This document shows positions 37,584 to 41,098 of a DNA stretch of 64,000 nt, piece by piece. The position numbers were made by a program, and so were the translations under genes. The notes below the pieces were generated by a model. The model worked only from the letters and a program-made list of their open reading frames with translations. It did no database searches and had not been told where the DNA came from. Position 1 is the first letter of the stretch. Each line of letters opens with the position of its first letter. The DNA comes from Halorussus limi (GTDB lineage Archaea; Halobacteriota; Halobacteria; Halobacteriales; Haladaptataceae). The stretch is taken from positions 558,001 to 622,000 of the forward strand of contig NZ_CP096659.1 in NCBI RefSeq assembly GCF_023238205.1, given 5' to 3'.

Positions 37584-38158
37584 GCCACGGAGGACGGCGG
37601 GACGGGTCTTAAAAGTCGGTCCGGACTGTCCGTCGGAACGGTCGGAAAAGCGGGGCGGGCGGCCGAGTCCGGTGGCGCAGTCGTGCTGGATGTGGCCGAA
37701 TGCCGGTGTGACCGGGTGGAGGGCGAAACCGGAAGGGTGCGGCGGTCGATGGGTGCGGACGTGTGCCTCTGAGCGTCGCGAACGACGAGCAGGCGGCGGA
37801 ACGGTCGGCTGTCGCGCTGGCGGAAACCGGGCCGCTGGACGGGGCGGCCCGGCCGGGTGTGTTCGTCGCCGCTCGTCGTGCCGGGATGTGCGGTTGCGGT
37901 CGTCAACGCACTGTCGGGAGCGGGACGACAGTACGCCGGTCGCAATGACCGCATCGATTCCTACGGGTCGGTCCCACTTCAACCGGGAGGACCGTCCACG
38001 TGGTTCAGGCCCGTTCACCGCCGTAGTGAACGGTTTTGAACAGTTCAACGCCAGCGCAGGGCACTCGAACGACGGTCAGAACGGCGATGTGACTCGCGGG
38101 TCGAGGAGAGTGAGACCGGGCCCGCCGAGAAAGTGGCGACGCCGTCGGAGCGGCGCGA
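37584..38158. other. 575-nt non-coding stretch with symmetric GTTCA array
   Basis: Contains the cupin promoter at its left end and an ordered array of GTTCA/TGAAC half-sites at 38003-38047. Short open frames here (for example 37763-37948) have low-complexity Arg/Gly/Ala composition and no similarity to known proteins, so I call no gene. The possibility of a decayed gene is open. Confidence 0.5.
38003..38048. promoter_or_regulatory. Symmetric operator-like array of GTTCA half-sites
   Basis: GTTCA occurs at 38003 and 38013, TGAAC at 38027 and 38037, and GTTCA again at 38043. The first four are arranged GTTCA-N5-GTTCA-N9-TGAAC-N5-TGAAC, symmetric about position 38022, with 10-bp phasing on each arm. 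The inner pair sits in a perfect 8-bp stem, CCGTTCAC/GTGAACGG (38011-38018 and 38026-38033). The outer TGAAC also forms the 13-nt palindrome TTGAACAGTTCAA at 38036-38048. That is a pattern expected for a regulator binding as two cooperative dimers on one face of the helix. The nearest starts are the cupin (430 nt away) and the small membrane protein end. Confidence 0.45.
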
Positions 38159-38377
38159 CTACGTGCGATGCTCGCCGACGAATCCGGTCGAGAACGCGAT
38201 CCACGCCAGCACGCTCACGAACAGGATGGGCGGGAGGATGGCGAATCCCCAGAGCGGGTCGACGCCCCACGCGAGCAGCAGGACGACGTCGAGCAGTCCG
38301 AGCGTCAGGAACGGCAGGACGGCCAGCGCCGCCCGTTTGCGGTCCATCGACCCGGACGACGGGAAGCGGTTCTCCAT
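38159..38377 (-). CDS. Small two-helix membrane protein
   Basis: A 72-residue protein with two transmembrane helices (ALAVLPFLTLGLLDVVLLLA, about 16-35, and PLWGFAILPPILFVSVLAWI, about 40-59) and a polar N-terminus starting MENRFPSSGSMDRKR. The ATG at 38377 gives a short soluble head before the first helix. It is divergent from the following metallo-hydrolase gene with about 136 nt between starts. Such small membrane proteins are frequent in haloarchaea; no function known. Confidence 0.65.
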   Translation of the reverse strand: MENRFPSSGSMDRKRAALAVLPFLTLGLLDVVLLLAWGVDPLWGFAILPPILFVSVLAWIAFSTGFVGEHRT

Positions 38378-38513
38378 GTCGGAACGAGGAACCCGCACGG
38401 ACAAAAAGCGTCCGTTCGCCGACGCGGTCGAACCGCGGAGGCGAGACCGGAGTCGACCCGACGGAGAGTCCGGCGGGGACAATGCTTTGGGGTACGGTAT
38501 CGTACCGCTCGAT

Positions 38514-39209
38514 ATGGCGACTGCGACCCAACTCGAAGCCGAACCCGGCACCGAAGCGGGCGTCTGGTGGCTCGACCTCGGGGGCGTCAACGCTTACCTC
38601 GCCGACGACGACGGCGACCTCGTGCTGGTCGACGCCGGAACGCCGCGCGACGCCGCCGACATCCGCGACGGCATCCACGAGGCCGGCTATCGGGTCTCGG
38701 ACGTGGCCCGCGTCCTCGTGACCCACTACGACGTGGACCACGTCGGCGCGCTCTCGAAACTCGGCCTCGACGCGCCGGTGTACGTCGGCCGGGCCGACGC
38801 CGAGATACTGGCGGGCCAGCGCAAGCCGAGCGTGCGCAACCACAAGGGCCTGCTCCAGCGCGTGACGAACCCCCTCGTCTCGGTGCCGGACCTGTCGATT
38901 CGCCCGGTGGTGGAGGGCGACCGAATCGGAAGTTTCACCGCTTACCACACGCCGGGGCACTCGCCGGGCCACATGGTCTACGTCGCGGAGTCGCCGAGCG
39001 TGGCGTTTCTCGGCGATCTCGTGCGCGAGACCGACGGGAAGCTAGTAGCGTCGCCGTGGGCGATGAGTTACGACACCGACGAGGTCGCACAGAGCGTTCG
39101 GCGGTTGGCCCGCGACGTGCCCGACTTCGAGATGGCCGCGATGGGCCACGGGACGCCCATCATGCGCCGCGGGAGCGAGCGACTGCGGGAGTTGGCGGAC
39201 CGAACGTAG
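38514..39209 (+). CDS. Metallo-beta-lactamase-fold hydrolase
   Basis: A 231-residue MBL-fold enzyme. The metal motif reads THYDVDHVG (residues 70-78), so it is H-x-D-x-D-H and not the usual H-x-H-x-D-H; the second His is replaced by Asp. Other landmarks are intact: VDAGTP near 40, TPGHSPGHMVY near 146, FLGDLV near 166 and MGHGTPI near 212. The altered ligand set is known in some haloarchaeal MBL proteins and may change metal preference. The substrate is unknown; many relatives are glyoxalase II-like thioesterases. The gene is followed by the disrupted histidine kinase. Confidence 0.85.
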   Translation: MATATQLEAEPGTEAGVWWLDLGGVNAYLADDDGDLVLVDAGTPRDAADIRDGIHEAGYRVSDVARVLVTHYDVDHVGALSKLGLDAPVYVGRADAEILAGQRKPSVRNHKGLLQRVTNPLVSVPDLSIRPVVEGDRIGSFTAYHTPGHSPGHMVYVAESPSVAFLGDLVRETDGKLVASPWAMSYDTDEVAQSVRRLARDVPDFEMAAMGHGTPIMRRGSERLRELADRT

Positions 39210-39257: not shown

Positions 39258-40383
39258 ATGGTGAACCGGCCCTACTTCCGCGGCGGACCGAACTGGGGGC
39301 GCGTGATATCGGCGCTCGGACTGCTGTACGTCGCCGTTTCGGTCGGCCGGTTCGCCGCGGTCGTGGGTGCCGGCGACTCACTTACTGAGGCGCTTCTCAA
39401 CTTCGTTCAGGTCGGCGGTCCGGGAATCGTCCTCCTCTACGGCGGGATTCGTCTCCCGGACACCGAACTCCGCCCGGAGGCGTATCCCCGCGTCGTCGCG
39501 TGGTGTCTCGGCGGGGCCGCGGTGTTGCTCGGGGTGGTGGGACTGCTCTTGCTCGACCCCGACGTGAACGTCAACCACCTGCTTTGGTCGACCGTCCTCG
39601 CCGCGGCCGTCGGCAATCTCGGCGGTCTCGCCATCGGAGCGAACGAGGCGAGAGCCATCTCTCGCGCCCGCGAGGCCGAGGACCACGAGCGCGAGCTACA
39701 GCGTCAGAACGACCGACTCGAATCGTTCGCCAGCATGCTCGCCCACGAACTCCGAAATCCGCTGAACGTCGCCCAGATATACCTCCCGCGGGCCGCGGCG
39801 GGCGGCGAGGACGCCGCTGCGGAGGTCGAGGCCGCCCACGACCGCATCGAAGAGATGATAAATATTATGCTCGTCACGGCTCGGAACACCGATTCGTGCG
39901 TCGAGCGTGAACGCGTCTCGCTCGGGGATATCGCCGCGGAGGCGTGGGCGGACTTACCCGCCCGACGGGCGAACCTCGTCGTTGAGACCGACCGGAGCGT
40001 CCGCGCGGACCCGGTTCACCTCCGACACCTGCTCGAAAACCTGTTCGGGAACGCGGTCGAACACGGCGACGAGAGCGTGACCGTTCGGGAACGCGGTCGA
40101 ACACGGCGACGAGAGCGTGACCGTTCGGGTCGGCGACCTCCCATCGGGTTTCTACGTCGAGGACGACGGGCCCGGCATTCCGGCCGACGAGCGCGGGACC
40201 GTCTTCGACGCCGGGTACACCACGGACGCGGACGGCATCGGTCTCGGTCTCACCTTCGTGGCGCGACTGGCCGAGACCTACGGCTGGGACTGCACGGTCA
40301 CGGAGAGCGAGAGCGGCGGTGCGCGCTTCGAGTTCGAGAACGTCGAGGCGGAGACCGCAGAACGGGAGTCGAACCGCGCATAG
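39258..40383 (+). pseudogene. Four-helix histidine kinase gene broken by a 40-bp tandem duplication
   Basis: The intact parts spell a haloarchaeal sensor kinase: four N-terminal membrane helices, then HisKA with phospho-acceptor His163 in SMLAHELRNPLN, then the N-box ENLFGNAVEHG. A 40-bp tandem duplication (40043-40082 and 40083-40122) shifts the frame by one after about residue 275. The G1 and G2 boxes (VEDDGPGIP, DGIGLGL) are therefore read only in another frame up to 40383, and the shifted frame runs to a stop at 40478. Deleting one copy gives 1086 nt, an exact 361-residue kinase. Start: ATG at 39258, between two GTG codons in the same frame. Either a pseudogene or a reversible off state. 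Confidence 0.9.
40043..40122. repeat. Perfect 40-bp tandem duplication inside the kinase gene
   Basis: Unit 1 at 40043-40082 and unit 2 at 40083-40122 are identical over 40 bp. The 7-mer GTTCGGG begins each unit and occurs a third time at 40123-40129, immediately after unit 2. This is the layout produced by replication slippage between short direct repeats in a single-copy ancestor. Forty is not a multiple of three, so one copy disrupts the reading frame and loss of one copy restores it. Confidence 0.95.
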
Positions 40384-40474
40384 CCGGATCGCTCGCCAGT
40401 CGGAGCCGAGAAGTTTGGTACGCCGAGCCACACGCCCCCGAAACTTACGTTCGCCGAACGAGTCCATCGACGCG

Positions 40475-41098
40475 ATGAGCGACAGAGACGCAGTCCGTCG
40501 CGCCTACGACGAGATGGCCGAAACCTACGCCGCCGAGCGGTCCCAAGGGGGTCGCGGAGTCGAGATACTCGCGGGATTTCTGGACACCCTCCCGGAGCGG
40601 CCTCGCGTCCTCGACGCCGGATGCGGGCAGGGAACGCCGGTGCTCCGGCGACTCGCCGACGCCGGCGACCCGGTCGGTCTCGACTTCTCGGGCGAGCAGT
40701 TGCGACTGGCGAGCGAGAACGTTCCCGACGCACCGCTCGTCCGAGGCGACATGACGAAACTCCCGTTTCGGGACGACGCGTTCGACGCCGCGACCGGTTT
40801 CCACTCGCTGATTCACGTACCGCTCGACGACCACGCGACGGTCGTCGAGGAGTTCGCGCGCGTCCTCCGGCCCGGCGGGCGCGTCCTCCTGACGGAAGGA
40901 GTCGAGGAGTGGTCCGGGGAGAATCCCGATTGGCTCGACAGCGGGGTCGAGATGCGGTGGGATATCGCCGGGGCCGAGGCGACGAAAGACCAGTTAGACC
41001 GCGCCGGGTTCGCCGTCGAAGACGAGTGGCTGGTGGTCGACGAACTGGCCGACGACGAGGTGCAGAAACCGTTTATCGAGGCGCGATTAGAAGACTGA
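40475..41098 (+). CDS. Class I SAM-dependent methyltransferase
   Basis: A 207-residue methyltransferase of the UbiE/Methyltransf_11 type. Motif I VLDAGCGQGTPVLRRLAD is at about residues 44-61, the acidic SAM-ribose loop VGLDFSGEQL near 66, motif II ATGFHSLIHVPLDDHATVVE near 104 and motif III GGRVLLTEG near 134. The start is the ATG at 40475. The substrate is unknown; the family includes quinone and small-molecule methylation. The gene follows the kinase remnant but has no visible operon partner and is convergent with the DUF7126-like gene. Confidence 0.86.
   Translation: MSDRDAVRRAYDEMAETYAAERSQGGRGVEILAGFLDTLPERPRVLDAGCGQGTPVLRRLADAGDPVGLDFSGEQLRLASENVPDAPLVRGDMTKLPFRDDAFDAATGFHSLIHVPLDDHATVVEEFARVLRPGGRVLLTEGVEEWSGENPDWLDSGVEMRWDIAGAEATKDQLDRAGFAVEDEWLVVDELADDEVQKPFIEARLED

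Follow-up and report, generated by a model that had tools for sequence, protein, structure and literature searches.

Within the window, which is the whole 64-kb stretch of DNA analysed here, a 40-bp tandem duplication breaks the reading frame of a sensor histidine kinase gene. With a probability of roughly 0.7, we infer that an accessory 4TM sensor kinase of a Halorussus species has recently been turned into a null allele by slippage. The duplicated sequence, the loss of frame, the microhomology at the repeat edges, the lack of further decay and the sporadic presence of the gene at this locus are observed directly. The features of the locus are:

38133 to 39209, + strand: upstream neighbour, metallo-beta-lactamase-fold hydrolase (name assigned from the sequence), synteny kept
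39258 to 40082, + strand: intact N-terminal part of the kinase with HisKA_4TM, HisKA and N-box (from translation, Pfam and 79% identity to the orthologue of relative G010)
40043 to 40082, + strand: first 40-bp unit, GTTCGGGAACGCGGTCGAACACGGCGACGAGAGCGTGACC (from TRF and base-by-base comparison)
40083 to 40122, + strand: second 40-bp unit, identical to the first; the additional 40 nt are not a multiple of 3 and shift the frame
40123 to 40129, + strand: third GTTCGGG, which represents the conserved V-R-V codons of VTVRVG and is the 7-bp microhomology closing the duplication
40080 to 40478, + strand: shifted tail that follows the duplication, roughly 130 aa, pI 12.0, arginine-rich, with a stop that overlaps the start of the next gene
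40117 to 40383, + strand: rest of HATPase_c with the G-boxes DDGPGIP and GIGLG, in a frame that differs from that of the HisKA part and without a lesion of its own (PF02518, 6.3e-12)
40475 to 41098, + strand: downstream neighbour, class-I methyltransferase-like protein (name assigned from the sequence), synteny kept

Structure of the interrupted kinase gene

When analysed with TRF, positions 40043-40129 appeared as the top-scoring tandem array of the 64-kb window (period 40, 2.2 copies, 100% match, score 174). No base differs between the two 40-mers, and the identity extends rightward by exactly 7 bases (GTTCGGG) and leftward by 0, which amounts to 47 bp of perfect homology at period 40. TRF and direct comparison thus confirm the identical tandem units and the third GTTCGGG that had been described in the original prediction. 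The pair is the sole exact tandem duplication in the window with a unit of at least 15 bp. The background rate was taken from a 400-kb sample of the same chromosome, which contains two exact duplications with a unit of at least 24 bp (24 bp and 48 bp), a 17-bp array excepted, corresponding to about 0.5 exact tandem duplications per 100 kb. The exact 40-bp repeat is not due to chance. The window's own chromosome also harbours, at about position 3434254 (G000:C1, L141:14254-14407), some three exact tandem copies of a 48-bp unit.

The gene encodes a kinase of the HisKA_4TM type. Its membrane-embedded sensor region spans residues 16-140 (PF16926, 3.5e-11) and is followed by a HisKA domain (PF00512, 2.8e-7), in which the phospho-acceptor H163 (codon 39744-39746) lies within MLAHELRNPL, and by the N-box ENLFGNAVEHG with N265 (codon 40050-40052). 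In the Pfam scan, the reading 39258-40475 (406 aa) matched HisKA_4TM and HisKA and yielded no HATPase_c match. The latter domain was matched, at 6e-12, only from 40117-40380 in the other frame. The N-box and the G-boxes of HATPase_c do not share one reading frame; in relatives the frame is single, which bears out the proposed parting of HisKA and N-box from the G-boxes.

The kinase head has a pI of 5.0 and the shifted tail a pI of 12.0, and in a halophile such a tail would be unlikely to yield a folded product. The Pfam scan gave no match for the tail. A conserved alternative protein read from the shifted frame, which the original prediction had named as a finding that would speak against it, was ruled out, based on the arginine-rich tail of pI 12 without a Pfam match and on the use of the other frame by relatives. 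A short product from the GTG at 40117, or ribosomal bypass, is possible.

Origin and predicted effect of the duplication

The duplication probably arose by replication slippage, or by unequal recombination, between two copies of the direct repeat GTTCGGG (7 bp) that lie 40 bp apart. The left repeat would derive from N-box codons (L-F-G), the right one from codons of the beta-strand that follows (V-R-V). At the homologous places, the G010 orthologue reads CTGTTCAAG (left repeat) and GTTCGTGTC (right repeat), and the two repeats have separate origins. When 7-mer direct repeats with spacings of 20-100 were counted in the kinase ORF with one duplication copy, GTTCGGG at spacing 40 was the only one out of frame, the remaining 11 being in frame. 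This geometry fits slippage between short repeats, and the GTTCGGG at both edges supports the original prediction also on this point.

The lesion combines an exact unit, short flanking direct repeats and a length that is not a multiple of three. It shares with the slippage tandem duplications known as a mutation class in bacteria and archaea the exact copy, the short end repeats, the lost frame and the potential to revert, and it differs from them in nothing fundamental; its site is a loop that holds in-frame modules in relatives. DNA folding of the duplicated region was no better than that of shuffled sequences (z-score -0.05), which leaves a hairpin-driven duplication in the window unsupported.

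As 40 is not divisible by three, translation is expected to depart from the kinase frame straight after the N-box. The product would retain the membrane part, H163 and the N-box and would lose the G-boxes. Without these boxes it is predicted to lack ATP binding or autophosphorylation, making the allele a putative null. Reversion is mechanically feasible, through a deletion between the identical stretches of 47 bp, and to this extent the reversible structure proposed earlier is upheld by the perfect homology.

Comparison with related strains

The syntenic orthologue in G010 is an uninterrupted single frame. The proteins are 79-83% identical, and five neighbours are common to both loci (hydrolase, methyltransferase, small protein, GMP synthase subunit and CTP synthase). 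A kinase in a single frame was also found at the same locus in G012. In G004, G005, G008 and G014, the hydrolase directly adjoins the methyltransferase and the kinase is absent. Because these four close relatives with the same neighbours lack the kinase, it is regarded as an accessory gene whose loss is unremarkable. A search of the genome contigs for related kinases returned only distant ones. The ancestral single-unit state of the window lineage was deduced from G012 and from the sequence itself, since G010 carries two modules at this place.

Comparison with G010 yielded dN/dS values of 0.26 before the lesion, 0.28 after it and 0.21 for the neighbouring methyltransferase gene. The values on either side of the lesion indicate that the downstream half is undecayed and that the duplication event is probably recent. 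This constraint on both sides is in line with the earlier claim of a recent event in otherwise intact sequence.

Palindromic coding modules in the post-N-box loop

In the alignment, the G010 protein reads NAVEHG-STSSRPSADDAVEHG-STTSRPADDDAVEHA-DESVTV at the duplication site, which represents two modules. Kinases across the genus carry arrays of such units directly after the N-box; the original prediction missed this loop as a recurrent site of nearly always in-frame modules. The pattern HGS(T/P/A)...VEHG occurs in 162 of 381 genomes and in 49 of the 85 genera of the order, with a nearly empty reversed-pattern control; gene context was read for part of these matches, a minority of matches lies in other genes, and by the strict pattern no more than about 40% of the genomes have modules in kinases. 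At the kinase loci with context read, the units are 45, 48 or 51 nt in length and in frame, with two exceptions. In-frame modules of 45-54 nt were seen across Halobacteriales kinases (L060, L091, L112, L143-L164). Kinases broken within a module were observed at G014:C1:46019-46079 (L118/L146, 44-nt unit) and at G121:C1:2752751-2752801 (L148, 46-nt unit); both frame breaks are apparently due to a short loss or gain.

The kinase modules of relatives have a palindromic core with compensatory changes and keep the host frame. For the 48-nt type (52 sequences), 91.7% of cells were paired compared to 68.0% in shuffles, and the covariation score was 0.606 compared to 0.198, with 77 two-sided changes. 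The corresponding values for the 45-nt type (42 sequences) were 94.6% compared to 73.6% and 0.532 compared to 0.151, with 50 two-sided changes; for both types, the structures were read from the same sequences, and the search pattern itself determined the flanks. Slid versions of both palindromes reached a pairing of at most 57%. The low number of G-U cells (5 and 8) suggests that the palindrome is kept as DNA, or that one arm is copied from the other.

A third module type (VHQTESDAAHQNAQRSEDAVEHG and variants) was found mixed with the other two in the same loop (L099, L101, L103, L110-L112). Module-bearing loci gave no match in Rfam. Antisense matches in a parallel-beta-helix-like protein (L092, L097, L107, L114) were excluded as likely chance or unclear. 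In the AlphaFold model of the G010 kinase, the module loop has a pLDDT of 55-57 and lies between the well-modelled N-box helix and the next strand. Based on this low-confidence loop, additional in-frame length is probably tolerated there.

Modules differ in presence and number between relatives. A plasmid-encoded 7TM kinase of Haloferax lucentense and H. alexandrinus contains two modules (L183, L184). The orthologue found in H. gibbonsii lies beside the same aminotransferase, and its site is empty and in frame (L185, L186). Modules with empty sites in relatives also occur in a gene unrelated to kinases, as a HAD-like hydrolase features none in the window's genome (G000), one in G004 and four in tandem in G014 (L187, L188, L191). 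The insert in the G004 hydrolase has GAGGACGC repeated at both ends. The G014 hydrolase gene also looks frame-shifted further downstream. One module was found in an acyl-CoA synthetase-like protein of G005, and exact in-frame duplications of whole modules were found in G112, G279 and G284.

The module patterns found no match in the window, and the window's unit is probably not directly a module itself. It has neither a palindromic core nor a length (40 nt) that keeps the host frame. Among the exact N-box doublets of 392 genomes, only that of the window has a spacer taken from downstream kinase sequence. As the post-N-box loop repeatedly holds in-frame modules, the site tolerates length change; the window's event was out of frame. 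The duplication may have arisen independently, by slippage in a tolerant loop, and its common ground with the modules may perhaps be only the length tolerance of the loop or the proneness of the site to length change. A broader reading, which we consider rather unlikely and put forward tentatively, holds that the loop is a standing site at which palindromic modules (45-54 nt, as a rule in frame, with changing letters but preserved pairing) are gained, expanded and lost, and that the 40-bp lesion is a revertible, frame-breaking product of the same local instability.

Alternative explanations

Under a stricter link to the modules, a dedicated process would insert, expand and remove palindromic coding modules after the N-box of haloarchaeal kinases, and the lesion would be one of its by-products, out of frame in this case. 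Position and outcome (VEHG ... VEHG) match those of the modules, which are present in 162 of 381 genomes and covary as palindromes; two other kinases are frame-broken inside modules, and the G010 orthologue has two modules at exactly the duplication site. However, the window's unit is free of a palindrome (fold z-score -0.05) and of module sequence, the 7-bp repeat that defines its ends bears no relation to the ends of modules, and no other exact N-box doublet in the 392 genomes has a spacer of this kind. We consider this process an improbable source of the lesion. A slightly lower probability is assigned to an assembly or library artefact, in which case the cells would carry one unit. In favour of an artefact, the duplication is exact and known from a single genome. 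An unmerged contig overlap, however, predicts a run equal to the period; the observed run of 47 bp at period 40 speaks against it, and the extra 7 bases are conserved codons on the downstream side. Moreover, a 47-bp repeat is below common read length, so that collapse would be likelier than creation, and the 3.58-Mb window contig belongs to a 4.62-Mb genome assembled in 5 contigs with a completeness of 99.99%.

It is also conceivable, and in our view very improbable, that the two-unit allele is the OFF state of a slippage-controlled kinase and that cells pass from one unit to two and back at a frequency that matters. The 47 bp of perfect direct homology permit deletion, the unit number sets the reading frame, the remaining kinase sequence is undecayed, and kinase loops at the post-N-box site do alter their unit number during evolution. 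In these respects the locus resembles slipped-strand phase-variable (contingency) loci, in which repeat copy number sets the frame of one gene. It differs from them in having just two 40-bp units, with neither a hypermutable multi-copy tract nor observed variation, and no repeat tract preceded the event. Post-N-box module arrays are nearly always in frame, and length change there thus seldom switches the frame. In addition, four close relatives lack the kinase at this locus, so the plain loss of a dispensable gene fits. Nothing directly addressing phase variation of haloarchaeal kinases was found in the open literature. The phase-variation switch suggested in the original prediction is unsupported, given two copies in one genome and the absence of the kinase in four relatives, and the original interpretation is upheld in part. 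We retain the slippage-made null allele as the preferred reading.

Relation to known elements and significance

Rickettsia palindromic elements (RPE) are about 150 bp long and occur in unrelated Rickettsia genes (as summarised in PMC10969869, PMC3733652). The modules of the relatives resemble them in being palindromic and in frame within protein genes (PMC10969869, PMC3733652), but are 45-54 bp long, arranged in tandem and almost always found at a single site within a single protein family of Halobacteriales. Unlike RPE, the window's unit has no palindrome and does not keep the frame. Palindromic amphipathic repeat coding elements (PARCEL) consist of 25-residue units, many of them in membrane-targeted proteins, and the paper on them (PMC2996958) reports none in Archaea. 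Both PARCELs and the modules are in-frame coding repeats arranged in tandem whose DNA shows dyad symmetry (PMC2996958), but the modules are units of 15-18 residues inside the ATPase domain of kinases and show compensatory stem changes. No paper describing haloarchaeal palindromic coding modules was found in the open literature, subscription papers being outside the scope of the search.

Taken alone, the window lesion is an ordinary and well-explained loss-of-function mutation caught early. Its main importance is that it points to the post-N-box loop with its covarying in-frame palindromic modules. This raises the questions of what preserves a DNA palindrome within a protein-coding loop, and how copies of the modules arrive at the same position in many kinases as well as in a few other genes.
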